A stretch of 64,000 nt of DNA from Parapedobacter lycopersici (GTDB lineage Bacteria; Bacteroidota; Bacteroidia; Sphingobacteriales; Sphingobacteriaceae), in contig NZ_JAMSLW010000003.1 in the NCBI RefSeq assembly GCF_024643285.1, positions 1 to 64,000 of the forward strand, written 5' to 3'. Position numbers and translations under genes: made by a program. Of this stretch, positions 20,607 through 38,466 are shown piece by piece. The notes under the pieces were generated by a model that saw only the letters and a program-made list of their open reading frames with translations, did no database searches and was not told the origin of the DNA. The stretch's first letter is position 1, and every line of letters begins with the position of its first letter.

Positions 20607-20625
20607 TCCCTAAACATAAATAGTG

Positions 20626-23036: not shown

Positions 23037-24458
23037 ATGAAATTATATTTTTATGGGTGTTCGCTCAGTTTAACATTACTGCTTTCGGGCGGTTTGGCAA
23101 GCAATGTAGCTGCACAGGGAAGACCGGCTCCGCCTGTTAATACACCTGTTGCGTTACGTCCGGACATTACAATTGAACGCGTGATGGATATCGGCCCATT
23201 GGGCGTCAGGCTGCTTCGTAACGAGGTAACCGGCGACTTTTGGTATACCACATTTGATGGCAACGTTTTCCGTATTACCAACTTTGATACGCCGAGCGCG
23301 AAAACGGAAAAAGTGTTCTCCGCTGAAGATCACGCGATCACGCGGTTACAGGGGGCAGCTTTTCTGGGCAATACCCTGTTTCTTTGCGGCAATATCTCGG
23401 TCAATGATGGCAAAGGAACGAAGGGCCGGATGGTACGTTATAACCTGGACGAAGCTTCTCCGAAGCTGGTTGAAGTATTTAATACAGTGGAATACGGTAC
23501 GAATGCAACAACCTTTGACCATGGTTGGAATGCGCTGGAAATCAGTCCGGACCAAAAATATATTTATGTGAACACCGGCGCAAGAACGGACCACGGAGAA
23601 GTTCAGGACAATCGGGGCGCATATCCAAACGCACGTGACAATGCGTTAACGGCTAAGGTATTCCGTTTTCCTGTCGACACGGAGAATTTACTGCTGGAGG
23701 ATGACGAAGCAGCTTTGAAAGCCAAGGGGTATATTTTTGCAGAGGGGATCCGTAATGCATATGATATGGCGTTTGACGGAAAAGGTCATTTATTTGGTGT
23801 AGTTAATTCCGGTGATTATGACCATTCGGAAGATATGTTCTGGATCCGGGAAGGACACCACTATGGATTCCCCTGGATCATGGGTGGTATTGAAAATCCG
23901 CAACAGCATCCGGAGTGGGTTCCGGATCCGGACCGCGATCCGCTGATCGGCAAGACTTCGCACGCCTGGATCGTGAAATATTTTCACAATGACCCTAATT
24001 TCCCTAAAAGACCGGAAGGGGTTACGTTTACAGGAGGTGTATTAAATATCGGCCCTGACGCAAATGAATACCGGGCGTATTCCGGACATGTACTTGATGG
24101 GGATACCACGGGCGTAGCGATCAGCACGTTCAATGCACACAGCTCGCCGCTGGCCTTGTTCTTTGATAAAGAAAATGCCTTAAGCGAGGACCTGAAAGGT
24201 GACGGTTTTGTTATCCGGTATGCCGGAGGAGGCAGGGCCGGCCGAATGGATCCGCTTCGCGCGCAGGGAAAAGACCTGTTGCATCTGAAATTATCCTACA
24301 ACAAATTGCTTGATAATTACATTGTGCAGACGACCCGTATCGTGGACGGATTCAATTCGCCAACGGATGCGGTGCTGGTTGGTAACGTCGCATATATCAT
24401 TGAATATGCTGCGAATACCGATGGCCGGATCTGGAAAATTACATTGCCAAAGGATTAA
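23037..24458 (+). CDS. Exported quinoprotein-type sugar/sorbosone dehydrogenase-like beta-propeller
   Basis: A 473-residue periplasmic protein with a Sec signal (LTLLLSGGLASNVAAQ, about residues 12-27) and a six-bladed-propeller pattern related to soluble glucose/sorbosone dehydrogenases. Recognisable segments are FDHGWNALEISPDQKYIYV, GARTDHGEVQDN, GIRNAYDMAFDGKGHLFGV and EGHHYGFPWIMGG. Relatives that bind PQQ oxidise sugar hydroxyl or aldehyde groups and pass electrons to a cytochrome; a cytochrome c gene lies directly upstream. PQQ binding here is inferred from the family only, and non-catalytic propellers of this type also exist. A second, diverged member with its own cytochrome domain lies at 27627. 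Confidence 0.8.
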   Translation: MKLYFYGCSLSLTLLLSGGLASNVAAQGRPAPPVNTPVALRPDITIERVMDIGPLGVRLLRNEVTGDFWYTTFDGNVFRITNFDTPSAKTEKVFSAEDHAITRLQGAAFLGNTLFLCGNISVNDGKGTKGRMVRYNLDEASPKLVEVFNTVEYGTNATTFDHGWNALEISPDQKYIYVNTGARTDHGEVQDNRGAYPNARDNALTAKVFRFPVDTENLLLEDDEAALKAKGYIFAEGIRNAYDMAFDGKGHLFGVVNSGDYDHSEDMFWIREGHHYGFPWIMGGIENPQQHPEWVPDPDRDPLIGKTSHAWIVKYFHNDPNFPKRPEGVTFTGGVLNIGPDANEYRAYSGHVLDGDTTGVAISTFNAHSSPLALFFDKENALSEDLKGDGFVIRYAGGGRAGRMDPLRAQGKDLLHLKLSYNKLLDNYIVQTTRIVDGFNSPTDAVLVGNVAYIIEYAANTDGRIWKITLPKD

Positions 24459-24532: not shown

Positions 24533-25618
24533 GTGAAAACCCCAAGCCTCTTTTGTTTATGCCTAGCTGGCGTGTTTGCAGCACAGGCACAGGAAATCGA
24601 TTCGAAATTACTTCAGTCGCCACGTATCTATACAGCAAAGAAAACAACAGGTACCATCACCATTGATGGGAAAGCCGATGAAGCACAGTGGGGCAGGGCA
24701 GATTGGACGGTAGGTTATACTGATATCATGTACGGTGAGGAGAAGCCTGCTGCCTATGCCACGCGGAGTAAGATGTTATGGGATGATACTAATGTATACC
24801 TTTATGTGGAATTTGAAGAGCCGCATATTTGGGCGACGCTTAAGGAGCATGACTCTTCCGTTTTTCAGGATAATGCCTTAGAGGTATTCTTTGATCCGGA
24901 CGACGACACCCACAATTATATAGAATTCCAGATTAATGCGTTTACGACAGTCTGGGATTTAATCATGGATCTTCCGTATCGTAACGGCGGTCGCTCGTTG
25001 TCTGACTGGGATATCAAAGGACTCCAAAAAGCTGTCTACATAGATGGCACATTGAATAATCCAGCTGATGAAGATCGTGGATGGGGTATTGAACTGGCTT
25101 TTCCCATTAAATCGATATTAGGTGGTAGGAGAGGGGTTATTAAACCAGGAGATTACTGGCGGATGAATCTTTCCAGGGTGCAGCGGGAAACCGAAGTTCA
25201 GGACGGGCAATATCGGCGGAAGACTGACAGTAATGGCAGGCCGTTATCCCCTGATTATTGGGTTTGGTCGCCGGTAGGCGAGGTTAGTCTGCATGCCCCC
25301 GAGCGTATGGGATATGTATTATTTGCCGAAGATGACGGTAACCCTGTGCCACCGACCATTGACCACGAAGAAGAGGGAATGCGACTTGAGCTTTGGAAAT
25401 ACTATTACGTCCAGCAAGCCTATCAAGGTGAGCACGGCACTTATGCAACGGACCTTCGCGCGCTTCGGGACGCATATCCGAAAGACCAATTGGCTGTTGC
25501 TGATGCGATCCAGCTATTTGCTACGCCATACCAGTTCTTACTGCGGTATAATTACCCAAATGGCCAATACATTACGATTGACCATCTGGGAAAAGTAAGA
25601 AAGGGAAAAGAAGACTGA
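24533..25618 (+). CDS. Exported CBM9-like carbohydrate-binding domain protein
   Basis: A 361-residue secreted protein with a Sec signal (SLFCLCLAGVFAAQAQ, about residues 5-20) and a CBM9-like/DOMON-type beta-sandwich (about 40-255). It shows ITIDGKADEAQWGRADWT, the typical YLYVEFEEPHIWATL strand and DNALEVFFDPDDDTHNY. The C-terminal 90 residues look helical (LRLELWKYYYVQQAYQGEHGT). The start codon is GTG at 24533. Such proteins usually bind carbohydrate or haem-like groups and have no proven catalytic role. It ends the plus-strand run with the cytochrome and propeller genes. Confidence 0.82.
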   Translation: MKTPSLFCLCLAGVFAAQAQEIDSKLLQSPRIYTAKKTTGTITIDGKADEAQWGRADWTVGYTDIMYGEEKPAAYATRSKMLWDDTNVYLYVEFEEPHIWATLKEHDSSVFQDNALEVFFDPDDDTHNYIEFQINAFTTVWDLIMDLPYRNGGRSLSDWDIKGLQKAVYIDGTLNNPADEDRGWGIELAFPIKSILGGRRGVIKPGDYWRMNLSRVQRETEVQDGQYRRKTDSNGRPLSPDYWVWSPVGEVSLHAPERMGYVLFAEDDGNPVPPTIDHEEEGMRLELWKYYYVQQAYQGEHGTYATDLRALRDAYPKDQLAVADAIQLFATPYQFLLRYNYPNGQYITIDHLGKVRKGKED

Positions 25619-25649: not shown

Positions 25650-25678
25650 CGGCGGGATTAAGCCTTATAATCCCGCCG
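25650..25678. terminator. Bidirectional terminator between convergent genes
   Basis: An 11-base perfect stem (cggcgggatta with taatcccgccg) with a 7-base loop, followed by TTTTGC on the plus strand and preceded by AT-rich sequence. It overlaps the last codons of the convergent PLP enzyme gene. Confidence 0.8.
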
Positions 25679-27250
25679 TTTTGCTTTCCATGATGCCGTG
25701 CCGTATTCACCCAGACTGACATCTCCGCCCATCTCCGAATTGCTGGTTACTGTTCCCGTAAATTCGAAATTGAGCCGTACACCTTCCTTGGTGTAAGAAC
25801 TTCTGAATAAAATATCACCACCATGCAGTTCACCGAAGAGGTCCCGGTCGCCAAAACTGGCGAAATGGGTTCCCTGTAAGTTACTATCACCGTTCTGTTG
25901 TTCAAAAACCAGTTTCTGGTTGACAACACTGGCTGAAAAATGCATTTCAAGGTCCCACTGCCCGGTCAGGTTAAAGGTAGGGGCTGCCGTGGAAACCGGA
26001 TTCGGCGGTGTGGGGTTCTTCAATATTTCGGCCACGCGCTGCGCAACGATTTTCTCATCGCCTTCATTAAACTGCGAAGAGCCGATGCTGATATTGGGTT
26101 GCATGTTGGGGGGGAAGGGAAGGAAACTTCCCGCACCGCTTACAGCAATGCGCGGTTTGCTGTTCCAAAGCAGTTGCTCCATATCATAACCTGTTAGCGG
26201 AATTTGCTGCATATCCCATTCTACCCGAAGGGACGGGCTGTGATTGGAACGGCCCCGGGGCATGCGGATATCCGCCTTTACACCGGATATGCCCTTCAAA
26301 GGCTGGGCAATATGTTCTAATTTAGCAACCCATTGCTGCATAATGGCTTTGTGATCCTGTTTTAGCCACACTTCCACGGCGGTGAGCATGCCCAGGATTT
26401 CTTCCCGGCCTACTTTAAACCCGCGTCCGAAACCATGATGCGGTGCCATGGCAATCCGGGCGGCCTGAATGAGGTCCTTACGGCCGAGTAGCAGGCCGGC
26501 ACATTGTGGGCCACGCAGGTATTTACCGCCGCTGTATGCAACTAAATCAGCTCCCTGGGTAATGTGTGGATTAGGTACTTCAAGTCCCTCTGCAGCAGCG
26601 TCTACAAAAATGGGGATGTTCAATGGTTTGGTATGTTTTGCAATTTCCCGTATAGACAGTGGCCCTTCTTCCGACCGGGCGCCGGCTAATACAAGCACCA
26701 TGGCCGTGCGTGGGCCCAATGCAAGTGCTAATTCTTCCGGAGAAGATACTTCGACCATTTTTACGCCAACGGCTTTGGCGCCTGCATCGTATGCTGTGCG
26801 TGAATAATTGGTAATAACCACCTCATCTTTCATCCCTGCAAGATTGGGTACCTGCCACAGCTTATCCGGGTCGCCACCGGTAACACAGGCGGCGGTAGCC
26901 GCGGTTACGGCTGCAGAAGCGCCCGCACTGACAAATCCCCATTCGGCACCGGTGAGTTCCCCGAGACGGTCGCCCACCTTATCCATCAGTTCATCAAGCT
27001 GTACATAATGTTGTGATGCGGCGTCCATGGCCTCCAACACTTCGGGCCATACCCGGCTGGCCCCGATAATCGTAACGGTTCCACGGGCATTGATCAGCGG
27101 TGTCGCACCGATGGATTCATAAATGTTATTGGCTTTATTCCAGGGTGCCAGCGTGGCGTTTCGGTCCGACCGGGTTTTTCCGATTGCGTGCAGTACCGAT
27201 CCTCCCAGAGGTAAAACGGTTAAACTTTTAAGAATTTCTCTACGTTTCAT
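25658..27250 (-). CDS. Exported SelA-like PLP-dependent enzyme with C-terminal beta-domain (paralogue 1)
   Basis: A 530-residue fold-type I PLP enzyme of the SelA/D-glucosaminate-6-phosphate ammonia-lyase (DgaE-like) group. PLP-site residues are D217 (IFVDAAAE) and the Schiff-base Lys243 (AYSGGKYLRGPQ). The catalytic part spans about 40-412. An extra domain of about 100 residues (428-527, starting LTGQWDLEMHF and rich in beta strands) follows after a Pro-rich linker. The N-terminus (KRREILKSLTVLPLGGS) is a twin-arginine-type signal, so the folded holoenzyme is probably exported by Tat. Characterised relatives eliminate water and ammonia from 2-amino sugar acids; the true substrate is unknown. 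It is transcribed away from the divergent quinoprotein gene at 27627. Confidence 0.85.
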   Translation of the reverse strand: MKRREILKSLTVLPLGGSVLHAIGKTRSDRNATLAPWNKANNIYESIGATPLINARGTVTIIGASRVWPEVLEAMDAASQHYVQLDELMDKVGDRLGELTGAEWGFVSAGASAAVTAATAACVTGGDPDKLWQVPNLAGMKDEVVITNYSRTAYDAGAKAVGVKMVEVSSPEELALALGPRTAMVLVLAGARSEEGPLSIREIAKHTKPLNIPIFVDAAAEGLEVPNPHITQGADLVAYSGGKYLRGPQCAGLLLGRKDLIQAARIAMAPHHGFGRGFKVGREEILGMLTAVEVWLKQDHKAIMQQWVAKLEHIAQPLKGISGVKADIRMPRGRSNHSPSLRVEWDMQQIPLTGYDMEQLLWNSKPRIAVSGAGSFLPFPPNMQPNISIGSSQFNEGDEKIVAQRVAEILKNPTPPNPVSTAAPTFNLTGQWDLEMHFSASVVNQKLVFEQQNGDSNLQGTHFASFGDRDLFGELHGGDILFRSSYTKEGVRLNFEFTGTVTSNSEMGGDVSLGEYGTASWKAKRRDYKA

Positions 27251-27626
27251 GTTAGTTAGTTGTTTTTAAAAAGTAGGCAAACGCCTTAAATTGGTGGTCT
27301 TCAGTTTACACACGTGTGCTAAAAACGTGGTGGTTTCGCTCGTTAAAGGTATAAATATTTTGATAATTGACTGCCGATAATTGCCTTTGTTTTCAGCGCC
27401 ATCGGCCGATGGGCCATCAAAATATAGGGGTTGTCTAAAAAGTATGCAATCGTTGTTTTTGCAAAGCATCTTGACGGTTTACTTTTCCGGACAACCCCAT
27501 AATACCCTAAATATATAATGTAAACAACCAAGTTGGCCAAATGGGTGACAAACCTATCGTTATTTGCTGCCGCTGGTTTAATTGGAAGTAGCTATATTTG
27601 CGGCTTCAAAAAACTACACGTTAACT
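27251..27626. other. Divergent intergenic region with a short IS-like inverted-repeat element
   Basis: 376 bases separate the divergent PLP enzyme and quinoprotein-lipoprotein genes. It contains a 72-base inverted-repeat element at 27427-27498 (listed separately). A possible -7 box TATATTTG is at 27593-27600, about 27 bases before the ATG at 27627; its -33 partner is unclear. Confidence 0.5.
27427..27498. mobile_element. Possible MITE or IS remnant with terminal inverted repeats
   Basis: The plus strand begins ggggttgtctaaaaagta and the complement of the right end begins ggggttgtccggaaaagta: terminal inverted repeats matching over roughly 18 bases with small differences. A possible direct repeat ATA flanks both sides. 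Terminal GGGGTTGTC with an A-rich follow-up resembles insertion-sequence ends. The element is too short to encode a transposase. Confidence 0.4.
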
Positions 27627-29384
27627 ATGTATGCTAATCTATTAAAAACCTGCTCTAGGGTAGGAAGGTATTTTTTTCCCGCGATGCTATTGTTTTCCGT
27701 AGTCGGTTGTACGCAAACAGGGAGTGGCGGGCTCCAGGGCGATCCGGATAATGGCGGGTTGGCGCTTCCGGGCGGCTTTGAGGCAATTGTGGTGGTCGAC
27801 AGCCTGGAAGGCAGAGCACGTCACCTTGCCATCAATGACAATGGAGACATTTATGTAAAACTGCGCTTCCCGGATTCCATCGGCGGAAATGTAGCGTTAC
27901 GGGATACCACGGGCGATGGAAAGGCCGATATTGTAATTCCTTTCGGCGATTATGAAGACAAAGGCAGTTACGGAACAGCCATGCGGATTTATAATGGATA
28001 CCTGTATTTTAGTTCCATGTTAAATGTATTCCGGTACAAGCTGACTCCGGGAGAATTACTTCCGCAGGAGGATATGGAACTGATTTTACATGATGACCAC
28101 CCGCATGGTACGCACGAACATATTGCTAAACCGGTTACGTTTGACAACGAAGGTTATATGTATGTTCCTTTCGGGGCACCTTCCAATGGTTGCCAGGTCG
28201 AGAACCGTACTCCGAACAGTCCTGGTCAGTACCCCTGTGAGATGCTCGCCGATCACGGTGGCATCTGGCGTTTTGATGCGAACAAGCTTAATCAGACACA
28301 GCGGGATGGTGAGTTGTATGCTACCGGACTTCGAAGCGTTGTAGCACAGGACTGGAACCATCAGGAGAATAGCCTGTATGCATTGCAGCATGGCCGCGAC
28401 GACTTGCTGCGCCTATGGGCCAACTATTATAGCCCGTGGCAAAGTGCCATGCTGCCATCGGAGGAATTTTTTAAGATTGAAAAGGGTGATGATGCCGGAT
28501 GGCCTTATTTTTATTACGATCAGGTGAAAGGGGAGAAAGTAATTAACCCCGAATATCTGGCGCAACAGAATGAATTGGGCGATGGAAGCCAGTACAAACA
28601 GCCGCTTATTGGCTTTCCAGGGCATTGGGCACCAAACGATCTGTTCTTTTATACTGGTGACCAGTTTCCTGAGCGATATAAGCAAGGTGCTTTCATTGCC
28701 TTCCACGGTTCAACCAATCGCGCGCCGTACCCGCAATCGGGTTATTTCGTGGCATTTGTTCCGTTTAAAGACGGCGTCCCATCAGGTGAGTGGGAAGTTT
28801 TCGCCGATGGCTTTGCAGGTGTGGACCCCATTGTCAATGTCAGTGATGCGAAGCACCGGCCAATGGGACTTGCCATGGGGCCGGACGGATCGCTGTACGT
28901 GAGCGACGACGTGAAGGGAAAAGTATGGCGTATTATCTATACCGGTAACAAGGGCGGCTTTGGCGAACAGCAGCTCGCAGAGATGGAAACGCATAAGCAA
29001 CTTACCCATATCCGTACGCCGGATCAGGAACAGGATAACCTGGATAAAGGCAAAGAAGTCGCCGGCGCCAAGGTTTATTCGACCTACTGTGGCACCTGCC
29101 ACCAACGTGATGGTAAGGGTGATGGTAGCCGATTCCCGCCATTGGATGGCTCAGAATGGGTAATTGGTGATAAAAAACGACTAATTGATGTTGTTTTAAA
29201 CGGGCTGGAAGGCGAGATTAAGGTGAAAGGTGTTTCCTACAATAACCTGATGCCACAGCATAGTTTCCTGAGCGACGAGGATATTGCTAAAGTTACCACC
29301 TACATCAGGCAGAGTTTTGGTAATAACGCTAGTGAAATTACCAATGAAGAAGTAAAACAGGTCCGGGCTGAGACTGCAAGGTAA
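27627..29384 (+). CDS. Quinoprotein-type beta-propeller lipoprotein fused to cytochrome c
   Basis: A 585-residue lipoprotein: the signal ends in a lipobox (FSVVGC, about Cys27). It then has a sorbosone-dehydrogenase-like propeller (about 45-450, with ATGLRSVVAQDWNHQENSLY and KGDDAGWPYFYYDQVKG), then a C-terminal class I cytochrome c domain (about 480-570, CGTCHQRDGKGDG, probable distal Met in NLMPQHSF). The fusion lets a propeller dehydrogenase hand electrons directly to its own haem. Start taken at ATG 27627, since an upstream ATG at 27582 adds residues before the signal helix. It is divergent from PLP paralogue 1 and convergent with PLP paralogue 2. The substrate is unknown; an alcohol, aldose or aldehyde is likely from the family. 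Confidence 0.86.
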   Translation: MYANLLKTCSRVGRYFFPAMLLFSVVGCTQTGSGGLQGDPDNGGLALPGGFEAIVVVDSLEGRARHLAINDNGDIYVKLRFPDSIGGNVALRDTTGDGKADIVIPFGDYEDKGSYGTAMRIYNGYLYFSSMLNVFRYKLTPGELLPQEDMELILHDDHPHGTHEHIAKPVTFDNEGYMYVPFGAPSNGCQVENRTPNSPGQYPCEMLADHGGIWRFDANKLNQTQRDGELYATGLRSVVAQDWNHQENSLYALQHGRDDLLRLWANYYSPWQSAMLPSEEFFKIEKGDDAGWPYFYYDQVKGEKVINPEYLAQQNELGDGSQYKQPLIGFPGHWAPNDLFFYTGDQFPERYKQGAFIAFHGSTNRAPYPQSGYFVAFVPFKDGVPSGEWEVFADGFAGVDPIVNVSDAKHRPMGLAMGPDGSLYVSDDVKGKVWRIIYTGNKGGFGEQQLAEMETHKQLTHIRTPDQEQDNLDKGKEVAGAKVYSTYCGTCHQRDGKGDGSRFPPLDGSEWVIGDKKRLIDVVLNGLEGEIKVKGVSYNNLMPQHSFLSDEDIAKVTTYIRQSFGNNASEITNEEVKQVRAETAR

Positions 29385-29460: not shown

Positions 29461-31125
29461 CTAGGTAGCCAGCGGAGGGCCTACCGGGATTTTGATCGAA
29501 CGACGGTTTTCTGTCGTATATTCCACTTTTTTCGCTGCAAAAGTACATTCAAGATACTCGCCCATGTGTAACCTGCCGGTCATTTGATCACCATCGTTTC
29601 CGGATAAGGTGCCTGAAAATGAAAACACGAGATTGTCTCCGGGTACGCGGTACGCACTTTGGAATTTCACTTCATTTCCTTCTACTGAGCCTACTAAGTC
29701 GCGGGTATAGAAGTCTCCCTGGTGTACACCGGTTACCCAGTTGTCTTGTTGCTCGATGTAAAAATTATGTACGCTTTCGCTGTTCGCAAATTTGATGTTT
29801 ACTTCCCAGCGGCCAGTAATGTCATGAGCTGCCGCCACGGGTGTTGTTGACTTGGGCGTTCTTTTCTGCGAAAGCACTTCATACAACCGATCTGCAACAA
29901 TCTTATCATTTCCATCCTGCATTTGGAATGCCGTGATCGAAACACCTGTCATCCCGTTTTCACCTCTTGATCCACCTAGGGCAATTCTTGGCCTTGCATG
30001 AACCATCTCGTCAACAATTTCATCGCCTGTTACATGCAATGCATTCGGATCCCAGGTAATGGATAATGAGGGGCTGTGATTTGACAGTCGGTTGGGTTCG
30101 CGTACCTCTGTTTTAATGCCCGGAATGGTAGATATCCGTTTGTTAATGGTGTCCAGCCAGGAAAGCCATTTTTGCCATACCGCTTTGTGATCCCGTTCAA
30201 GCCACGCCTCTACAGCCGTTACCATACCCATCGTCTCTTCCCGTCCAACTTTATCGTTGCGTCCGATACCGTGGTGTGGTGCACTGGCCTGCCAAGCTGC
30301 CTGTAAAATACTCTTCTTGCCCAGTAAGAGTCCTGCGCCCTGTGGGCCACACATTACCTTACCGCCGCTATATGCCACTACATCTGCTCCATCGGCCAAA
30401 TGCACGTTGGGGACGGTGAGGTCCTCGGCGGCAGCGTCCACTAAAATCGGAACATTATGCGGCTTGGCTATAGCAGCGATTGCGCGCGTGGAAAGCGGAC
30501 CTTCCTCGCTTTGACCTCCGGACATGAGGTAGATCATCGCTGTACGGTTGCTGATTGCATTTTTTAATTCTTCAGCTGTTTCCACCGTAATAATCGTAGC
30601 GCCAGTATTGCGGATGGCATGGTCATAAACGTTACGGGCGTAACGCGGAATAATAACCTCGGTTTTTTCAAATCCGGCAACATTGGGCAAACGGATTAAC
30701 TTTTCGGGGTTTCCGCCGGTTAAGCAGGCGACCGTTACGTGTTTCATTCCGGCCGCGCAGCCTGAGGATACCATGCCCCACTCGGCACCGGTAATTTTTG
30801 CCAGGTGCTGTCCTACACCGGCCGCCAATTCATCGTATTGTACAAAATTGTCAGCGGCAGCATGCACTGCGGCTTTTACTTCCGGCAACTCCACAGATCC
30901 GCCAATAATGGTAAATGTTCCACGGCAGTTAATAATAGGTTCAACACCTATTGCACGGAACACTTCCGCACTTGCCTCAGCACCAGTCTGATTTGCACTG
31001 GCCAAAGCACCAAGTACGCCTGTTTTACTAGTGCTCGCAGTCGTTGCGCCCTGCGCCAGAGCGGAGCCGTAGACTCCGGCAAGGGGTAAGAGGCTTAGCC
31101 CCTTAATCACATCTCTTCGTTTCAT
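29461..31125 (-). CDS. Exported SelA-like PLP-dependent enzyme with C-terminal beta-domain (paralogue 2)
   Basis: A 554-residue homologue of the protein at 25658, with the same three-part plan. There is a twin-arginine-type N-terminus (KRRDVIKGLSLLPLAG) with an Ala/Thr/Ser-rich linker to about residue 50. The PLP core (about 55-430) has D230 (ILVDAAAE) and Schiff-base Lys256 (AYSGGKVMCGPQ). A beta-rich domain of about 100 residues follows (TGRWEVNIKFANSES onwards). It is the last gene of a minus-strand run PLP3-amidohydrolase-RidA-RraA-mutarotase-like-PLP2. The shared architecture with paralogue 1 shows duplication within the island. The catalytic role (ammonia-lyase or dehydratase on an amino acid-like substrate) is inferred from SelA/DgaE relatives. 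Confidence 0.85.
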   Translation of the reverse strand: MKRRDVIKGLSLLPLAGVYGSALAQGATTASTSKTGVLGALASANQTGAEASAEVFRAIGVEPIINCRGTFTIIGGSVELPEVKAAVHAAADNFVQYDELAAGVGQHLAKITGAEWGMVSSGCAAGMKHVTVACLTGGNPEKLIRLPNVAGFEKTEVIIPRYARNVYDHAIRNTGATIITVETAEELKNAISNRTAMIYLMSGGQSEEGPLSTRAIAAIAKPHNVPILVDAAAEDLTVPNVHLADGADVVAYSGGKVMCGPQGAGLLLGKKSILQAAWQASAPHHGIGRNDKVGREETMGMVTAVEAWLERDHKAVWQKWLSWLDTINKRISTIPGIKTEVREPNRLSNHSPSLSITWDPNALHVTGDEIVDEMVHARPRIALGGSRGENGMTGVSITAFQMQDGNDKIVADRLYEVLSQKRTPKSTTPVAAAHDITGRWEVNIKFANSESVHNFYIEQQDNWVTGVHQGDFYTRDLVGSVEGNEVKFQSAYRVPGDNLVFSFSGTLSGNDGDQMTGRLHMGEYLECTFAAKKVEYTTENRRSIKIPVGPPLAT

Positions 31126-31163
31126 CCGATTATTTAATTAGTATAGTAGTTAAAAGATTAGTG

Positions 31164-32132
31164 TTATTGTTTCGTGGTAAAAAAATCGTAATTAATGGTC
31201 CAGTGGAGTGTCTCGTCCGGATTAACGCGGATGGAAATGTAAGGTTCCGGACAAATGGTGTTTGGGCTCGCCCAGAAGTTAAGTTTAGCTATCGGCTGGT
31301 CGCTGGTTACCGTCACACCTGCGCCGGTAACGCTATTCTTGATGTCGAAACGGTAATCCGTTGGTTCCGCCGTAAAACCGGTAACGCCGCCAAAAAAGGA
31401 AGATCCTCCTTTGGTAATTTCACGGTTAAAGACAAACCGATTATCTTCGATGGTCGCAAAATCACCGGCATTTGGTTCTCCGGTAAGCGGATAGGGGAAT
31501 TCAACGGTATATTCGGGTCCGATCTTCCGGTTATCCATCACAAAGAAATTGTGATTGTATGTTTCAGTTTCCATCGTCTTCTGGCCGAGATTCTTAAGCT
31601 CATGGGTGAGCAGGAGCCGCGGTGCATTGTTTGCCAGTTGGACCGTTTTTTTATACACATAGGGATAATCCTTGTCCGTTAACCGATGAATAAATTCGAC
31701 CCGGTCTTTCTGCGCATGGACTTCCCATGTTCCATGGTCAACAATTTCATACTGACGACTAAAGGAATAAGGCTTATCATCGGGCTTACGTACCCGGCCA
31801 ACTCCGATTTTTACGAAAGTTTCACCTGGTTTTGCTTCGTTATAACCCAGTGGTTCGAAATACTCTGCCGGACCGGTAATGGCATCATGCGCCATTGGAT
31901 CGTGATCACGCCAGGGTCCGAAATAATCATGCCCTTTATAATTTAATGTGTTAATGACACCGGCCCAATCAAACCGCGACCCACGGTAATAGCCATTTTG
32001 TTGATCGGGCAAATACAGGCGTGCCTCGATGATACCATTGGAAATTGTTGTTTCAGGAGGTGATACCTGCATCATTGCAGCAGTAACTATGGCGAATGCT
32101 GCTAACAGCCCGATGCTTAACTTTTTTAACAT
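31164..32132 (-). CDS. Exported protein with probable galactose-mutarotase-like fold
   Basis: A 322-residue protein with an N-terminal Sec signal (GLLAAFAIVTAAMM, about residues 7-20). The body is all beta with aldose-1-epimerase-like features: NGIIEARLYLPDQQNGYYRG, a central THELKNLGQKTMETETYNHNFF stretch with candidate His residues, and DQPIAKLNFWASPNTICPEPYIS near the end, a position comparable to the catalytic Glu region of mutarotases. I recognise the fold only by pattern, so a carbohydrate-binding or sugar-epimerising role is inferred. It sits 31 bases after the RraA-like gene and 38 bases before PLP paralogue 2, in one probable operon. Confidence 0.6.
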   Translation of the reverse strand: MLKKLSIGLLAAFAIVTAAMMQVSPPETTISNGIIEARLYLPDQQNGYYRGSRFDWAGVINTLNYKGHDYFGPWRDHDPMAHDAITGPAEYFEPLGYNEAKPGETFVKIGVGRVRKPDDKPYSFSRQYEIVDHGTWEVHAQKDRVEFIHRLTDKDYPYVYKKTVQLANNAPRLLLTHELKNLGQKTMETETYNHNFFVMDNRKIGPEYTVEFPYPLTGEPNAGDFATIEDNRFVFNREITKGGSSFFGGVTGFTAEPTDYRFDIKNSVTGAGVTVTSDQPIAKLNFWASPNTICPEPYISIRVNPDETLHWTINYDFFTTKQ

Positions 32133-32163
32133 GGCATTTATATTCCGTTGTCCGAATAGCCGG

Positions 32164-33093
32164 TTACCAAGTCCTCTTTTCCATTAACTTATCAAGTTCT
32201 TCCCGTGTCATTTTGCCTTCCGAAGGGTTTTCTTTCAACCATTGGAGAAAGGCTTCCTTGATTTCGTCGGTCCACTGGCTATCGATCTGTCCGGTTGTGA
32301 AGCGGCCATTACGGATCACCTCAAAACCAAAGTTGTCGCGAAGGACGATAAACTCAGCCGTCAGTACAACCTCTTCCGCTAAGTGTGCGGGAATGAACAG
32401 TACCCCTTCGCGCTCAGCCAAAACCAGGTCGCCTGGCATCACAATGGCTTTCCCGATGCGGGTTGGCGTATTAAGCCCCATCAATACAGATTCTTCCAGG
32501 AACGAAGGGTGGAAGTCACGGACAAAGGCATTAAACCCATCTATTTGCAATAACCCCTGTAAATCACGTGCACCTCCATTAAAAATAACGCCATTGCCGG
32601 ATTTATTAAATATGGAATTACCGAGCGTCTGACCAATCAATGTGCCACCGGCAACTTTTCCAAAGCCGTCGGCAACATACACGTCACCCTTTTGCAGCAT
32701 GTCAATCGGCCAAGCATTGGAGGCTCCGATGTAACCCTGTTTATGGCCACGCTCGAGGATGCTTTTCTCGATATCCGGTCGCTTAGGCATAAAGGTTGCC
32801 GTCAATGCCCGGCCTACAACGGTTACATCGTCATGTACCAATTTCCAGCCATCTTCGAATTGATTGTTATATCCCATGTTACGCAAAATAGTCCATGCAT
32901 CGTCAAGACCAATCGCTTTGGCGCGTTCCACGATGTTGTCCGGAATTTTAGGACGGCCATCCTCAAAACGCTCGCCTTTCCATTCTGACGTCAGGAAAAC
33001 CAATTCCTCTTTGGAAATGGTTTGGGCTGATAAGCCGATAGGTAGGATTAAACAAAATAGGTACGCACAGAGTAAATACGAAAAACGCTTCAT
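32164..33093 (-). CDS. Exported RraA-family protein (HMG/oxaloacetate aldolase-like)
   Basis: A 309-residue protein with a Sec signal (LLCAYLFCLILPIGLSAQ, about residues 7-24). It also has the RraA/4-hydroxy-4-methyl-2-oxoglutarate aldolase core (about 85-255): VADGFGKVAGGTLIGQTLGN, the catalytic NGGARDLQG with R176 and D177, and PGDLVLAEREGVLFIP. The family includes class II pyruvate aldolases and oxaloacetate decarboxylases that need a divalent metal, and also the regulator RraA. The conserved Arg-Asp pair and the catabolic context favour an enzyme. Export is unusual, since known relatives are cytoplasmic. The N-terminal 60 and C-terminal 50 residues are extensions beyond the core. It has a 229-base upstream region of its own. 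Confidence 0.85.
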   Translation of the reverse strand: MKRFSYLLCAYLFCLILPIGLSAQTISKEELVFLTSEWKGERFEDGRPKIPDNIVERAKAIGLDDAWTILRNMGYNNQFEDGWKLVHDDVTVVGRALTATFMPKRPDIEKSILERGHKQGYIGASNAWPIDMLQKGDVYVADGFGKVAGGTLIGQTLGNSIFNKSGNGVIFNGGARDLQGLLQIDGFNAFVRDFHPSFLEESVLMGLNTPTRIGKAIVMPGDLVLAEREGVLFIPAHLAEEVVLTAEFIVLRDNFGFEVIRNGRFTTGQIDSQWTDEIKEAFLQWLKENPSEGKMTREELDKLMEKRTW

Positions 33094-33208
33094 TGCTTCT
33101 TATTCTTATAAATTAATTTAACGATAACAGTTCAAAGTTCAACAGGCTTTTGCCAGGTGTATTTTTTATTGGGACGATGCAGTTAACGGGTTGCCCGGAA
33201 ACTTCTAT

Positions 33209-33235
33209 TACTTCCCCGTAATAATGGAAGTAACC
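33209..33235. promoter_or_regulatory. Short inverted repeat upstream of the RraA-like gene
   Basis: Arms ttacttcc and ggaagtaa are about 10 bases apart within the AT-rich 229-base gap between ridA-like and rraA-like genes. It could be an operator for a dimeric regulator. No promoter of the TAnnTTTG type is clear on the minus strand here, so this is only a candidate. Confidence 0.25.
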
Positions 33236-33322
33236 AATTTTACATCAATAATAGGTAAGCAAATTAGTATATAGTTAATTGTAATGCAATTATTACGATA
33301 TAAAATATACGAATATGATTGC

Positions 33323-33862
33323 TTAATCCTTTAATTCGACAATCATTTCGATTTCAACGGGAATGCCCGAAGGCAACGATGAGAGTCCCACTGACGAGCG
33401 CGCATGCTTGCCGGATTCCCCAAAGACTTCCACCATCAAATCAGAAAAGCCATTGATAACCTGTGAGTGTCGTTCGAAATCGGGAGTCGCATTGACCATC
33501 CCTAGCACTTTAACGATACGTTTAACTCTGTTCAGGTCGCCAATTTCGCGTTTTAAGGACGAGAGGAGGGAGATGCCAACTAAACGGGCAGCCGCAGTTC
33601 CTTCTTCTACCGTCAGATCAGCACCAAGTTTTCCGATAACCTGCCCTCCTTCGGGTTTGTCAGGGCCATGTCCGGATAAGTAAACATAATTTCCCGACTG
33701 AACAGCTTTTAAGTAGTTTGCCGTGGGTGGATTGCCTTGGATGAGCTTGATGCCCAATTCCGCTAAACGCGCCTCTGCATCGGTCGCTCCCTGCCCCCTT
33801 ACTGTGGCAGCAAATAATAGACAAATCATGGTAAAAGAGATGGAATGAAACAGTTTGGTCAT
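33323..33862 (-). CDS. Exported RidA-family enamine/imine deaminase
   Basis: A 179-residue protein with a Sec signal (FTMICLLFAATVRGQG, about residues 10-25) and a full RidA/YjgF domain (about 32-178). The key pair is present with normal spacing: R155 (ARSSVGLSS) and E170 (PVEIE), matching Arg105 and Glu120 of RidA. RidA hydrolyses 2-aminoacrylate and related enamines/imines released by PLP enzymes. Its presence beside three SelA-like PLP enzymes fits that role directly. A signal peptide on RidA is unusual and implies that reactive imines are made outside the cytoplasm. It lies 109 bases after the amidohydrolase gene. Confidence 0.88.
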   Translation of the reverse strand: MTKLFHSISFTMICLLFAATVRGQGATDAEARLAELGIKLIQGNPPTANYLKAVQSGNYVYLSGHGPDKPEGGQVIGKLGADLTVEEGTAAARLVGISLLSSLKREIGDLNRVKRIVKVLGMVNATPDFERHSQVINGFSDLMVEVFGESGKHARSSVGLSSLPSGIPVEIEMIVELKD

Positions 33863-33971
33863 GTTAAGTAACTTTAATTTGAGTTAACGGATAAACGCAA
33901 TTGTCCGCCATACGATCCCCCGATGACTTTATTGGCATCCGTTGGGCGGCATGGCGGACAGCGCAGTTCAA

Positions 33972-35231
33972 TTATCTTCTTACGTAAATGGGATCGGCAA
34001 TACCGTTCAGGTCATAAACGATCCGGCCGCCCCGTATAGTCATTTCGCATTCGAATTTACGATCTCCTTCCATTTTGTATCCGGTCTTGTCGTAAAATCC
34101 GAAATTGCCTTCTCGCATAGTTAAAATGGCGATGTCAGCTTCGGAGCCCTCAGAAAGGTTGCCCAGTTCCTGGCGTTTGATAATGGTGGCAGGTTTCCAG
34201 GTGCTGGCCTCGATCACGTCGGCAAGCGGCATGCCCATATTCAGGAATTTAGACATAACACTGAGCTGGTCTTTCATCGAGCTGTTCATGCTTCCGGTAT
34301 GGAGGTCTGTACTGATGGCGTCTGGATAAAAACCCTCCTTAATGGCCGGAATAGCCTGTGAATAATTAAAGCTTGCTCCTCCATAGCCGACTTCAAAATT
34401 AATTCCCCGTTTGCGGGCTTCCCAAACAAACGGTTTTACTTTGCCTGTTGCTTCGTCCACGATCGTTTCGCGGACATTGCCTGGCAACAGCGTGTAGGTA
34501 TGGGCAAAAATATCACCCGGACGCAGACGTTTCATGAACAATTCTTCAATGGACAATGGCGGTGTTGATCCCCCGAAGTCAATGAGTACGGGTAGGTCTG
34601 CTTGGCGGCCGGCTTCTGTTACACGTTCGATTCCGGTCCAGTCGTGGCCGTCGTAATGCGCTAATTTAAATCCGACAATGTAATTGCGGTTTGCACTCGC
34701 CGTCTGCGCAGCCAGTTTGGGATCCATATCATTGGTACTCTGTTCGTAAGCTCCGCCCCGCATGCCTTCACCGACAATATTCAGGAAAGAAAGGACACGT
34801 GTTTGTGCCTGGTCGATGATGTTTTCTTTAAACATCCGGAAAGATTTCCAGCCTGCGCCGCCGGCATCAACAATCGTGGTTACGCCTACACGGAACGTAA
34901 AGCCATCTGGCACGACTGCCACACTGCCGTTGCTGAGATAGTTTGATCGGTCGGTACCGTAAAATACGTGACCGTGAATATCGATAAGCCCGGGAGTAAT
35001 GTACATGCCATCAGCATGGACAACCTGTTTGGCGCCGGTAGCGGAAATGTCTTTTGCAACCCGTGCAATCTTTCCATCGAGTACCGCTACATCCATCGGA
35101 CCATCAATACCGTTTTTCGGATCGATCACATGGCCTCCCTTGATCACCAGGTCATACGACTGTTGCGCGAAACCGGTAGTGGCTGCAAATAGTAAGAGGC
35201 AAAAAGTTAAAATACGCATTATAAATTTCAT
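33972..35231 (-). CDS. Exported dihydroorotase-like amidohydrolase (paralogue A)
   Basis: A 419-residue amidohydrolase/deacetylase-family metalloenzyme with a Sec signal (LTFCLLLFAATTGFAQ). The fold is recognisable from H86-G-H88 (DIHGHVF), a likely carbamylated K189 (VGFKLAHY), H244 (FAHTYT) and D309 (ISTDLH), with the C-terminal composite beta domain WDLNG-like end (VYDLNG). The metal-site position that is usually VH in relatives reads IDFGG (D218), as it also does in the paralogue at 51990. EF_0837-type relatives are encoded beside SelA-like PLP enzymes in other bacteria, so the pairing seen here repeats a known association. It is likely to hydrolyse an amide or cyclic imide, substrate unknown. 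Confidence 0.87.
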   Translation of the reverse strand: MKFIMRILTFCLLLFAATTGFAQQSYDLVIKGGHVIDPKNGIDGPMDVAVLDGKIARVAKDISATGAKQVVHADGMYITPGLIDIHGHVFYGTDRSNYLSNGSVAVVPDGFTFRVGVTTIVDAGGAGWKSFRMFKENIIDQAQTRVLSFLNIVGEGMRGGAYEQSTNDMDPKLAAQTASANRNYIVGFKLAHYDGHDWTGIERVTEAGRQADLPVLIDFGGSTPPLSIEELFMKRLRPGDIFAHTYTLLPGNVRETIVDEATGKVKPFVWEARKRGINFEVGYGGASFNYSQAIPAIKEGFYPDAISTDLHTGSMNSSMKDQLSVMSKFLNMGMPLADVIEASTWKPATIIKRQELGNLSEGSEADIAILTMREGNFGFYDKTGYKMEGDRKFECEMTIRGGRIVYDLNGIADPIYVRR

Positions 35232-35361
35232 GTAAAGTTATACGATAAAACGAGGGCCTTCGAAATGATGTGATCTTTTCGGATACCCTCGTTTACTAAG
35301 AAAAGTTGTGTTCAATAATTTGAAAATTAGGCTCACCTATAAATTATTGTCGTTTTAAGAC

Positions 35362-36570
35362 TTAAACGGCTGCCGAAAACTCCTCATGCAGTCGGTTAGC
35401 CACAATTTCAGCTTCCCCTGGTTCCAACATAAAAACCGTGAGGTTTACACCGTCACCATTCCGCATTACTTCAATTGACGGGTTGCCATTACGGAGTTTT
35501 TCCGATAAATCTCTGTTGGTTATTTTTACCCGATTATCCCATGTAATAGTCAGTGTGGGGGTGTGGTTGGCTATTGGTGGAACGGTAACCTGCGTGCTTA
35601 CTCCCGCCACCTGTTTCACCGCACTTTCGATGGTAGCTACTCGCTTTTCCCATTCCTTCCATTCCGCCTCATGATCGGTATTGACATATTTTTCCAGGGC
35701 TACATACATACCCAGGATTTCTTCTTTGTTGACTTTCATACCCCGGCCGATGTTTCCGCCACGGGGAGGCGCATTCAGCCTTGCAGCAGCAATAAGATCT
35801 TTTCTGCCAAGGAGTAGCCCCGCGCTTTGTGGTCCTTTTAACGCTTTTCCGCCGGAGATGCAGACAAGGTCAAAGCCCATGTCATTGTATTTCCAAAGGT
35901 TTTCTACGGGTGGAATGTCCGCCGCAATATCGATAATGGTCGGTATACCATGTTTTTTGGCTACAGCCAACCACTCCTCGTGGAGGATTTTGCCATGCAT
36001 TGTGCTTTCATTCAGGAAATACATTAATGCGGTTTTACTGTTGACAGCCCGCTCCAGTTCCGCGCTTGTTTCAACCACCACCGGTTTAATGCCTGTATTG
36101 GTTAATGCGTGGATGTAACCGTGGTTGTGGCCTTTTTGTAGGATTACTTCATTTTTCTCCAAATTGCTTACGTCCGGAAGCTGTGCAATCTTTTCTTGGT
36201 CAGTCCCGGTCAATACGCCGGCAGTTCCCAGCACCAGAGCAGACCAGCATCCCGCGGTCACCATCGCAGCTTCCGAATGGCATATGGCGGCAATCTTTTC
36301 ACCCACCTTGTCCTGGACTTCATCTAACATGACAAATTTCCGTGAACTAGTCTGGATGGCCTGAATTACTTCGGGTTGCATTAAAGATGCGGTCATTGCC
36401 GTATACGTACCCGCAGCATTAATGAATGAACGTATACCGAGTTCTTCCACTAGGCCACGTGCCCGAGCCGCTGCAATTGCTTCGGGTGCTGCAGCTTTCG
36501 CCGTTGTAGCTACTATGCCGCCAGCCAACGGAGTCACTGATAAATACTTGAGTGCTTCTCTCCTTTTCAT
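35362..36570 (-). CDS. Exported SelA-like PLP-dependent enzyme without extra domain (paralogue 3)
   Basis: A 402-residue SelA/DgaE-like enzyme. The twin-arginine-type start (KRREALKYLSVTPLAGG) is followed by an Ala-rich stretch. The PLP core has D214 (TIIDIAAD) and Schiff-base Lys242 (CISGGKALKGPQ). It lacks the C-terminal beta-domain of the paralogues at 25658 and 29461. It also differs in the active-site approach: NESTMHGKIL here replaces the GARSEEGPLS/GGQSEEGPLS of the other two, so a different substrate is likely. It leads the minus-strand run (PLP3, amidohydrolase, RidA, RraA, mutarotase-like, PLP2), with a good promoter at 36618-36648. Confidence 0.86.
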   Translation of the reverse strand: MKRREALKYLSVTPLAGGIVATTAKAAAPEAIAAARARGLVEELGIRSFINAAGTYTAMTASLMQPEVIQAIQTSSRKFVMLDEVQDKVGEKIAAICHSEAAMVTAGCWSALVLGTAGVLTGTDQEKIAQLPDVSNLEKNEVILQKGHNHGYIHALTNTGIKPVVVETSAELERAVNSKTALMYFLNESTMHGKILHEEWLAVAKKHGIPTIIDIAADIPPVENLWKYNDMGFDLVCISGGKALKGPQSAGLLLGRKDLIAAARLNAPPRGGNIGRGMKVNKEEILGMYVALEKYVNTDHEAEWKEWEKRVATIESAVKQVAGVSTQVTVPPIANHTPTLTITWDNRVKITNRDLSEKLRNGNPSIEVMRNGDGVNLTVFMLEPGEAEIVANRLHEEFSAAV

Positions 36571-36896
36571 ATTTTGAAAGTTAGAATTAATTAGATAGTT
36601 AGAACTTTTTGAATAACCAAAGTTACTATTTTTTGAAAACTTTCCTAATATAAAGGTGGGGTATAACGGGGTTTTTAACGTTACCGGTCTTGGATGTAGA
36701 ACGGGGTGTCAAAGGGGGACTGGAGCAGCTGATGCCGAAAGCAACCGCCCCGGATCCTAGTGCGACGGTCCCGATCAGTCCTTCTCTATTTTGAAATTTT
36801 TCAAACAATAAATTACGTGGATTGTCAACATCATAAACGTGTGGCGGATGCCCCGTTGATCACTTGAAAATTTTAATTATCAAAAAGAAGATAATC
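36571..36896. other. Divergent intergenic region between PLP paralogue 3 and PA2169-type genes
   Basis: 326 bases with the minus-strand promoter at 36618-36648. A 60-codon open frame on the minus strand (36626-36808) has no recognisable content and overlaps that promoter. Otherwise nothing identifiable. Confidence 0.4.
36618..36648 (-). promoter_or_regulatory. Bacteroidota-type promoter of the PLP3-amidohydrolase-RidA operon
   Basis: On the minus strand TAACTTTG (complement of 36618-36625) matches the -7 consensus TAnnTTTG. Exactly 19 bases upstream lies TTAG (36645-36648), three of four matches to the -33 TTTG. It is positioned about 48 bases before the ATG at 36570. Confidence 0.5.
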
Positions 36897-37361
36897 ATGG
36901 AAGACTTAAAGAAAACTGCTGAGGTGTTGAACGATCTTATTAAAATCAACAACGATCGCGTAGAGGGATATCAGCGGGCAATAACTGAATTGCCGGAAAT
37001 CAATGCCGACCTGAAAGGCCTGTTCACCCGTTTTGTTGAACAAAGCGAAGGATTAAAAGCGGAACTACAGCAACATATCAGTGCGTGGGATGGTAAGGTC
37101 GATGCGCAGACTACTATGTCAGGCAAGATTTACCGCGCCTGGATGGATATCAAAGCGGCATTGGCGTCCGACGACCGTAAGGCTATCTTAGAAAGTTGCG
37201 AATATGGAGAGGACGCTGCCCAAAAAGCATATCGGCAGGCTGAACAGGAAGAAGGGATTTCTCCGGCTGCACGTGCCTTAATTACGAACCAGAAAATACA
37301 GCTACTTGCTTCACACGATCAGGTAAAGGAATTGCGTGATCGGGAACGGGAAGAAGCATAA
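36897..37361 (+). CDS. PA2169/DUF2383-type four-helix-bundle protein (copy 1)
   Basis: A 154-residue all-helical protein of the PA2169 family (DUF2383), related in fold to ferritin-like bundles. The family-type start is MEDLKKTAEVLNDLIKINNDRVEGYQ-like, with LFTRFVEQSEGLKAELQQHI in helix 2 and AWMDIKAALASDDRKAILESCEYGED in helix 3. Start at ATG 36897; an upstream ATG at 36864 adds a Lys/Ile leader not seen in homologues. First of three tandem homologues. Members are often found among general-stress genes. No metal site can be claimed. Confidence 0.87.
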   Translation: MEDLKKTAEVLNDLIKINNDRVEGYQRAITELPEINADLKGLFTRFVEQSEGLKAELQQHISAWDGKVDAQTTMSGKIYRAWMDIKAALASDDRKAILESCEYGEDAAQKAYRQAEQEEGISPAARALITNQKIQLLASHDQVKELRDREREEA

Positions 37362-37479
37362 TGTGGATACGCCCCGGTCACTTAATAGTTATACCGGTGA
37401 TGCAGGCAGCAGTCTTAGCAAGGGTAACAGTAGCCGAGAATCTAATCACACTACCATACAATATCATATCTACCATATC

Positions 37480-37965
37480 ATGGAAAACCTAAAAAAAGTT
37501 GCCGAATGTCTATATGACTTGATAGACTTTCATAAAGAACGGATCAACGGCTACAGGAAAGCATTGAATATGCTTGGGAACGGGGAGCAATGCCTCGAAA
37601 CCCTGTTCAATGCATTTATCAAACAAAGTGAAAATATGAAAGTGGAATTGGATAATATGGCCACTCATTGCGGTATAGTCCTGCATCTGCATTCCGAACA
37701 ATTTGGACTGGCTTGGTCCGTGGTGAAAGCAGTGTTCGACAGCCGTATGCCCACTTATTCGTTGGATCGTTGTAAATCTGGTGAAAATGCCCTACTAATT
37801 GCCTATCACGGTGTAGAAGGAAGTGAAGGCTTAGATGTAGAACTTAGGGAACTGGTTAAAAGGCAAAAGCGGGAAATTATTGCAGCGCGTGATTGGATTG
37901 CCCATTTTGAAAACTTTCTCCTGGAGTCGCCCAAACAGGATCAACCATTGGCCGCTGTTTCTTAG
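37480..37965 (+). CDS. PA2169/DUF2383-type four-helix-bundle protein (copy 2)
   Basis: A 161-residue paralogue of the preceding gene, with the same helix pattern (MENLKKVAECLYDLIDFHKE; FNAFIKQSENMKVELDNM; CKSGENALLIAYH) but more diverged in the last helix. Its start at ATG 37480 aligns with copy 1 (MEDLKKTAEV); a 48-residue upstream extension to 37336 overlaps copy 1 and is rejected. It is 118 bases after copy 1 and likely arose by tandem duplication. Confidence 0.83.
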   Translation: MENLKKVAECLYDLIDFHKERINGYRKALNMLGNGEQCLETLFNAFIKQSENMKVELDNMATHCGIVLHLHSEQFGLAWSVVKAVFDSRMPTYSLDRCKSGENALLIAYHGVEGSEGLDVELRELVKRQKREIIAARDWIAHFENFLLESPKQDQPLAAVS

Positions 37966-38007
37966 AGAAAGATTTATAATCGATTGTAAACTTAGCGCAC
38001 GACAACT

Positions 38008-38466
38008 ATGGAACATTCGCCAAAAACTCCGTCACTGCTTAACGATCTCATTGAGGTGAATGGATGGCGTATTTTGAGTTATCAAGCGGTATTGGCAGAA
38101 GCCCGTGTACACTCGCCTGCTGAACAGGACGTTTTTGAGGAAATTGTTTTCCAGGGGCAGCATCTTCAGCATGAATTGGAGGCTGAGCTGGTTTCGCTGA
38201 CGCGGGATCTGCCCCACCGGGGAAATCCGGATGGTCGGGTGCTGAAAGTTTGGAGTGCGGTAACCTCGTTCCTTAGGGGCAGGAAGGCTATGACCATCGG
38301 AGAACTGTTCGATCGGGGAGAGCGTGCGTTGTTGAAAATATATCAATACGTGGAGAAACAGCTGGACGGCCCTAAAAGCACAAAAAAGCTAATTGCACAG
38401 CAAAAAGAGGAATTGAAAGCTTTTTATAAACGATACAGGTCCTTATACCTGCATCAGCCGGTGTAG
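38008..38466 (+). CDS. PA2169/DUF2383-type four-helix-bundle protein (copy 3, divergent)
   Basis: A 152-residue protein, the third and most diverged of the tandem set. Shared positions include LLNDLIEVNGWRILSYQ in helix 1, FEEIVFQGQHLQHELEAEL in helix 2 and FDRGERALLKIYQ in helix 3. The gap after copy 2 is 42 bases, so cotranscription is likely. The function is not known; a stress-related role is inferred from family context. Confidence 0.75.
   Translation: MEHSPKTPSLLNDLIEVNGWRILSYQAVLAEARVHSPAEQDVFEEIVFQGQHLQHELEAELVSLTRDLPHRGNPDGRVLKVWSAVTSFLRGRKAMTIGELFDRGERALLKIYQYVEKQLDGPKSTKKLIAQQKEELKAFYKRYRSLYLHQPV

Follow-up and report, generated by a model that had tools for sequence, protein, structure and literature searches.

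Why should enzymes that depend on pyridoxal 5'-phosphate (PLP), and with them a RidA protein, carry signals for export from the cytoplasm? The question is raised by a 64,000-nucleotide stretch of Parapedobacter lycopersici (contig NZ_JAMSLW010000003.1, positions 1 to 64,000; hereafter the window), in which six consecutive minus-strand genes encode two SelA/DgaE-like PLP enzymes, an amidohydrolase, a RidA protein, an RraA-like protein and a mutarotase-like protein. A first-pass annotation of the window had proposed that these proteins form a degradation pathway outside the cytoplasm. We find that the export signals and the gene neighbourhood are conserved, which as a reading of the sequences is close to certain, and on balance we favour the explanation that the genes form an exported catabolic module for amino-sugar acids. 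The set of amidohydrolase, RidA and PLP enzyme is itself known; what is new is its exported, SusCD-linked form with an altered active site. The six genes of the run, and a third PLP gene on the same strand, are listed here:

35362-36570, minus strand: PLP_A, SelA/DgaE-like PLP enzyme of 402 aa with a twin-arginine (Tat) leader and PLP-binding Lys242 (profile and alignment)
33972-35231, minus strand: COG3964/PRK09237-type amidohydrolase, a candidate deacetylase, with a Sec signal and likely cleavage at FA/QQS (NF006689)
33323-33862, minus strand: RidA with a Sec signal, Arg155 and Glu170 (PF14588/PF01042)
32164-33093, minus strand: RraA/aldolase-like protein with a Sec signal, likely cleavage at SA/QTI and an Arg-Asp motif (PF03737)
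31164-32132, minus strand: mutarotase-like protein with a hydrophobic N-terminus (named from weak fold-level evidence only)
29461-31125, minus strand: PLP_B, SelA/DgaE-like PLP enzyme with a Tat leader and a C-terminal extension of ~115 residues (family scans)
25658-27250, minus strand: PLP_C, third SelA/DgaE-like PLP enzyme with a Tat leader and a C-terminal extension like that of PLP_B (family scans)

Positions, strand and the third PLP paralogue at 25658 are all as first annotated. The intergenic gaps from PLP_A to PLP_B are 130, 109, 229, 31 and 38 bases, and all seven minus-strand genes start with ATG. The ~115-residue extension is common to PLP_B and PLP_C.

Relatives were collected in one scan of GTDB genomes. 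Of its matches, at least 589 in number, the best 80 were taken and gave 79 loci, most of them in Bacteroidota and three in Acidobacteria records. The sample is therefore biased towards close relatives of common descent, and counts among them are not counts of independent events. One locus lacks an open reading frame (ORF) in the PLP cluster; 64 of the other 78 are longer than 14 kb, and neighbourhood counts refer to genes within 6 kb of a PLP gene. Together with the loci of the P. lycopersici genome itself (3.6 Mb in 22 contigs), this sample holds 100 PLP ORFs, 99 of them with an intact start.

The leaders of PLP_A, PLP_B and PLP_C have KRR(E/D)-type twin-arginine motifs, the genome encodes TatC, and all nine PLP proteins of the genome have the leader residues R3, R4, K8, P14 and G17 in common. 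By a home-made signal test, a Tat-type leader is present in 97 of the 99 PLP enzymes with an intact start, and signals are present in 87/89 amidohydrolases, in 19/19 RraA proteins and in 46/47 members of a RidA family with Tat-type leaders (38 Tat, 8 Sec). Two consecutive arginines occur in 101 of 102 exported PLP enzymes, the exception being cut by a contig end. The test, which scores whichever alternative start is best, is loose: of the 589 other ORFs in the loci, 374 were positive. Positives in small families presumed to be cytoplasmic were: sigma factors 0/26, response regulators 0/6 and 2/4, 2-keto-3-deoxygalactonokinase (DGOK) 3/4, KDPG aldolase 1/3 and M81 1/4.

The looseness of this test is why a second one was applied, based on the rule that in Bacteroidetes Gln follows most signal peptidase I sites (Q-rule; PMC5837995). 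Gln occupies position +1 in 86/89 amidohydrolases, compared to 150/4450 shuffled leaders, and in 19/19 RraA proteins, compared to 16/950 shuffled leaders. By eye, the likely cleavage site (Ala or Gly followed by Gln) is also seen in the window amidohydrolase, RidA, RraA-like protein and PLP_B. Among 19 RidA proteins of the window type (a count made without six ORFs of the same cluster that lack the RidA domain, two fusions and one short ORF), 8 obey the Q-rule, 8 score as lipoproteins, 1 is lipoprotein-like by eye and 2 are leaderless. Export routes vary within one protein family, which argues that it is location, not the leader, that is kept. Across the phylum, PLP relatives at E ≤1e-40 were found in 7 of 296 sampled genomes, P. 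lycopersici included, and all 18 of the matches listed align from residue 1 or 2 of the PLP query. N-terminal export signals were thus found for the six proteins of the run, as first annotated, with the identity and the leader of the mutarotase-like protein on weaker ground than the rest.

Much the same leader occurs on two kinds of enzyme. Two RidA genes (L022:9784-10281 and L021:9746-10243) have a leader nearly that of PLP_C, although the 19-20 kb of sequence around them contain no PLP gene, and 33 bases, beginning one base before the ATG, are identical between PLP_C (window 27219-27251) and one of these RidA genes. The leader looks as if it had been copied between unrelated enzymes.

A search of gene neighbourhoods, which the first-pass annotation had suggested, revealed that the exported set is conserved near PLP genes in other genomes. 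Among the 64 long loci an amidohydrolase lies near the PLP gene in 53 and RidA in 43, and all 43 loci with RidA also have the amidohydrolase. A pyrroloquinoline quinone (PQQ)-type dehydrogenase/cytochrome, of the GSDH/cytochrome family to which the window gene 27582-29384 belongs, is near in 31, a SusD-like gene in 16, an SBF transporter in 15 and RraA in 14. In the P. lycopersici genome the set is repeated, with nine PLP paralogues, eleven amidohydrolase paralogues (E ≤1.5e-90) and seven RidA-family genes; several genes of the set adjoin SusCD-like pairs. One further exported amidohydrolase paralogue lies in the window itself (51990-53282), behind its own SusCD-like pair.

The neighbours of the run in the window, all on the opposite strand, are listed here:

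17136-22188, plus strand: SusC-like (17136-20606) and SusD-like (20623-22188) proteins, a putative outer-membrane uptake pair (used as BLAST references and in clustering)
22564-23004, plus strand: small exported cytochrome c-like protein (assigned by clustering with L059:11272-13053, which has PF13442)
23037-24458, plus strand: exported GSDH-type dehydrogenase (PF07995, 26.1 bits against a cut-off of 25)
24533-25618, plus strand: exported CBM9-domain protein (PF06452, 35.2 bits)
27582-29384, plus strand: exported GSDH-type (PQQ-like) sugar dehydrogenase fused to cytochrome c (PF07995, PF00034)

The listed start of the fused dehydrogenase is TTG; by eye the first ATG is at 27627, and 27663-29384 scores 42.9 bits with PF07995 and 43.1 bits with PF00034.

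What reaction might the exported PLP enzymes catalyse? In the AlphaFold model of PLP_A (pLDDT 86.7, with residues 11-34 below 50), fold matches begin at residue ~35-40. The top match is 8t7j (Cap15; Z 38.5, rmsd 2.1 over 347 residues), followed by 7lc0 (DgaE, also called DGL; Z 37.3, rmsd 2.6 over 344 residues); by profile score DgaE (203.8 bits) ranks above Cap15 (177.1 bits). In a tree of 102 exported enzymes, nine cytoplasmic comparators and DGL, the exported enzymes form one clade with support 1.0, apart from the nine leaderless relatives and DGL. The exported enzymes share with DgaE the fold, the PLP lysine (Lys213 in 102/102; this Schiff-base lysine of DGL is Lys-217 in PMC9529869) and a basic residue at Arg226 (98/102). 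They differ from DgaE in their Tat-type leader and in two features of the active site. First, the DgaE proton donor His163 is found in 0/102 and His in the column of His162 in 2/102; the His-His pair, called strictly conserved in DGL (PMC9529869), is absent from the loop in all 102. Second, the phosphate-binding cluster is lost, with Arg301 kept in 2/102, Arg332 in 5/102 and Arg346 in 0/102. Among the nine leaderless relatives, both His are kept in 8 (in one as His-x-His), Arg301 in 8, Arg332 in 8 and Arg346 in 1. Loss of the arginine cluster fits an unphosphorylated substrate. Since the H163A variant of DgaE releases free enamine (PMC9529869), loss of His163 predicts that the exported enzymes would do likewise, and RidA would hydrolyse the enamine. 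A partnership between PLP lyase and RidA is likely.

The window amidohydrolase scores 437 bits with NF006689 (PRK09237; cut-off 371) and has the HxH, Lys, His and Asp ligands in common with COG3964 enzymes (PDB 2ogj and 8je0). It differs in being Sec-exported and at the beta5 metal-site position, where 85 distinct exported sequences (6 shorter members were left out) have Asp (83) or Glu (2) with all other ligands kept, whereas His is found in 3/3 proteobacterial amidohydrolases and in 2ogj and 8je0. RidA scores 67.5 bits with PF14588 (cut-off 35) and 44.1 bits with PF01042 (cut-off 27.3). Its Arg155/Glu170 pair, pointed out in the first-pass annotation and which we take to be equivalent to catalytic Arg105/Glu120, is invariant in window-type RidA (R 19/19, E 19/19), and both catalytic residues are present in 46/47 members of the Tat-type RidA family. 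The RraA-like protein scores 58.2 bits with PF03737 (cut-off 24.5), and the Arg-Asp pair noted earlier appears in the 80% consensus of its family. For the mutarotase-like protein no Pfam, NCBIfam or PDB-sequence match was obtained; a fold search with a model of mean pLDDT only 56 placed Slr1438 first (E 2.3e-10) and aldose 1-epimerases/mutarotases at ranks 2-14 (TM 0.35-0.49), with NDH subunits and YidC further down the list, and its hydrophobic leader has no clear A-x-A site followed by Gln.

Relatives without leaders place the exported set in a wider context. We found 237 plasmid records with a PLP relative, and 40 of the 40 rows listed match only from query residue 40-45. This match start does not prove that a leader is lacking, because Granulicella, which has Tat-type leaders, is among these rows. 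In ten plasmid loci that we read, the domain begins shortly after the first ATG in the nine non-acidobacterial relatives (from Proteobacteria, a haloarchaeon and Streptomyces), and two PLP proteins of Granulicella (Acidobacteriota) have Tat-type leaders. Six of the ten fetched plasmid regions are annotated; RidA is near the PLP gene in 6/6 and an amidohydrolase or deacetylase in 4/6. The three-enzyme module is therefore more widespread, and the window holds its exported form. The clusters on Rhizobium, Aminobacter, Sagittula and Phyllobacterium plasmids (L105, L109, L110, L112) resemble the window set in having RidA (4/4) and the amidohydrolase (3/4) near the PLP gene. They differ in that the PLP enzyme is leaderless and keeps both His and Arg301/332, the amidohydrolase has the beta5 His (3/3), and an ATP-binding cassette (ABC) importer stands where the window has SusCD. 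The Halorussus PLP gene is beside genes for a Rid protein, a PIG-L deacetylase and a glucose 1-dehydrogenase, and that of Granulicella beside a lactonase and a BBE oxidase.

In the explanation that we favour, an amino-sugar compound would enter through the outer membrane by way of SusCD-type proteins. Still outside the inner membrane, it would be converted to a 2-acylamido- or 2-amino-2-deoxy-aldonic acid by a PQQ-type dehydrogenase that works with cytochrome c and, in loci that have one, a lactonase. Deacylation by the amidohydrolase would follow. The PLP enzyme, which would take up its cofactor in the cytoplasm before export by Tat, would eliminate the C3 hydroxyl to give an enamine or imine, and exported RidA would hydrolyse this to a 2-keto-3-deoxy-aldonate and ammonia. 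The keto acid might be cleaved by the RraA-like protein, or be imported by an SBF or a major facilitator superfamily (MFS) transporter, phosphorylated and cleaved inside; as RraA is near PLP in only 14 of the 64 long loci, and DGOK and KDPG aldolase occur in a few loci, the last step may be intracellular. A stricter version is tentative and somewhat doubtful: a non-phosphorylating, Entner-Doudoroff-like pathway for amino-sugar acids would run wholly outside the inner membrane, with PLP lyases that lack the proton donor releasing an enamine and exported RidA quenching it. If this is true, enamine chemistry has been shifted to the outside of the cytoplasm and is thereby kept apart from the PLP enzymes that it would poison.

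The choice of substrate comes from the company that the PLP genes keep. The PQQ-type dehydrogenases, the lactonases of some loci, lactonase-RidA fusions, DGOK and KDPG aldolase together suggest 2-amino-2-deoxy-aldonates; an amino-sugar acid is our best guess, at about even chances. Lactonase-RidA fusions were detected in L075 (by Pfam) and L079 (by profile); in L075 (7891-9459), as in L079, a seven-bladed lactonase is fused to RidA and adjoins the PLP gene. One locus (L025) combines a SusCD-like pair, PLP enzyme and amidohydrolase with DGOK (PF05035), a KDPG/KHG aldolase (TIGR01182, above cut-off) and an MFS transporter for which the best-scoring NCBIfam model is that of a galactonate transporter, though the score is under the cut-off; in L027 these clusters are represented in the same order. 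In P. lycopersici itself, DGOK and one KDPG aldolase lie in one run (L117, C16:481000-500000) with a SusCD-like pair, an MFS-like gene and two twin-arginine ORFs that resemble enolase-superfamily dehydratases (the SusCD, MFS and dehydratase names being given by eye). Similarly, an enolase-superfamily protein (5095-6591) and a UxuA-like protein (7834-8988) of the window, both with twin-arginine leaders, flank an SBF transporter behind a SusCD-like pair (39-5036), and look like exported sugar-acid dehydratases. From these ORFs, in the window and in L117, the genome seems to dehydrate sugar acids outside the cytoplasm more generally. The first-pass annotation thus gains strong support for export and a conserved neighbourhood, and for an amino-sugar-acid lyase the support is indirect, by way of neighbours and the comparison with DgaE. 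For the ring opening that it had proposed, the better reading is that separate lactonases, present in a minority of loci, hydrolyse a lactone.

Among described systems, the oxidative chitin (ong) pathway of Pseudoalteromonas appears nearest in logic, with TonB-dependent uptake and, for the aldonate of N-acetylglucosamine, a deacetylase, a deaminase and a RidA that is essential although its role is not understood (PMC9537276). It differs in that OngB and OngC are predicted to be cytoplasmic, a KDG kinase is used and the pathway starts from products of lytic polysaccharide monooxygenases (LPMOs) (PMC9537276). Oxidised chitin as the source is rejected here, as no LPMO_10 was found in the P. lycopersici genome. 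PLP chemistry outside the cytoplasm, which the first-pass annotation took to be novel, is already known: PvdN and PtaA of Pseudomonas are periplasmic PLP enzymes exported by Tat in folded form with their cofactor (PMC6206403), as we propose for the enzymes described here. They differ in chemistry and pathway, which are those of pyoverdine tailoring, and the excerpt of PMC6206403 at hand mentions no RidA partner. The companion claim, that RidA outside the cytoplasm would be novel, is in keeping with the literature matches listed (open-licence articles, judged by title and start of abstract), none of which reports export of a RidA or a SusD system with RidA. The excerpts of PMC9007349, PMC11036162 and PMC3827258 do not describe the exported set; in that of PMC3827258 a yjgF gene appears only as one item of a list.

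Several observations weigh against the amino-sugar-acid module as we have drawn it. The most telling neighbours are rare (DGOK 3/78, KDPG aldolase 2/78, SMP-30-type 5/78, lactonase-type 6/78), and LPMO_10 (PF03067) has 0 matches in the P. lycopersici genome. The three window PLP proteins fall far below the DgaE cut-offs, with 160-181 compared to 385.3 bits (TIGR01437) and 142-172 compared to 600 bits (NF047797), and Cap15, an oxygen-dependent PLP enzyme, is as near in fold as DgaE. Rhizobial cytoplasmic relatives have also lost Arg346, such that the phosphate cluster is partly variable there; their His163 is intact and RidA is nevertheless next to them, so that the presence of RidA is not due to loss of this residue, an explanation unsupported as a rule. 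One RidA family has a Tat-type leader though RidA binds no cofactor, and in L063 and L069 the RidA beside an exported PLP gene is leaderless. Finally, the mutarotase-like protein is rare, with a single relative (L070) among the fetched loci. The leaderless RidA genes of L063 and L069 also adjoin genes for an acetate-type symporter and a lactate permease (family scan for L063 only).

If the enzymes were in fact cytoplasmic, the export signals would be artefacts of start-site choice, and the first-pass annotation had itself raised the concern that the true starts lie downstream. The looseness of the home-made test, which scored DGOK positive in 3/4 though sigma factors in 0/26, would allow this. 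We consider it very improbable and set it aside, as the leaders are conserved across dozens of genomes and vary in type (Tat, Sec, lipoprotein), the Q-rule is obeyed far above the level of shuffled leaders, and nine relatives differ in starting at the domain with no leader at all. It is also improbable that the exported PLP enzymes are oxygen-dependent and, like Cap15 or PvdN, form carboxamides with no elimination of water. Cap15 is a carboxamide-forming enzyme. Its dependence on oxygen and PLP is stated in the PDB title of 8t7j. The place of Cap15 as top fold match and the missing His163 of DgaE speak for such chemistry, as does the precedent of PvdN, a Tat-exported PLP enzyme that forms a succinamide (PMC6206403). 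The profile ranking of DgaE above Cap15 points the other way, and the neighbours (RidA, deacetylase and, in few loci, kinase and aldolase) fit a lyase.

Unlikely, on our reading, though less so than either of these, is that this exported module has N-acyl D-amino acids or beta-hydroxy amino acids as its substrates: the amidohydrolase would deacylate, the PLP enzyme would eliminate water and RidA would hydrolyse an aminoacrylate-type product. N-acetyl-D-amino acids and acetyl-mandelate are substrates of COG3964 hydrolases such as Atu3266, the rhizobial-type cytoplasmic version adjoins ABC importers, and one P. lycopersici locus (L019) has M81 and gamma-glutamyltranspeptidase genes, members of the same clusters being found in L034. 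The nine PLP and eleven amidohydrolase paralogues, which suggest several substrates, also speak for it. Sugar acids are favoured by the SusCD-like pairs, PQQ-type dehydrogenases, lactonases and lactonase-RidA fusions, and by DGOK, KDPG aldolase and the putative exported sugar-acid dehydratases nearby.

The conserved set, in Bacteroidota and some Acidobacteriota, puts PLP lyase chemistry and RidA in the cell envelope. The route that we predict for amino-sugar acids would let SusCD-bearing bacteria strip nitrogen from these compounds ahead of cytoplasmic uptake. A further question thereby becomes testable: does RidA serve detoxification in a place where other PLP enzymes in danger are few, or does it simply speed a step of the pathway?

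Two other regions of the window drew our attention. Next to PLP_A, on the opposite strand, three small tandem ORFs occupy 36864-38466, two of which cluster together. Further away, 9042-14802 resembles, by eye, an Mrp-type sodium/proton antiporter operon, with two large subunits that have Proton_antipo_M and Mbh domains.

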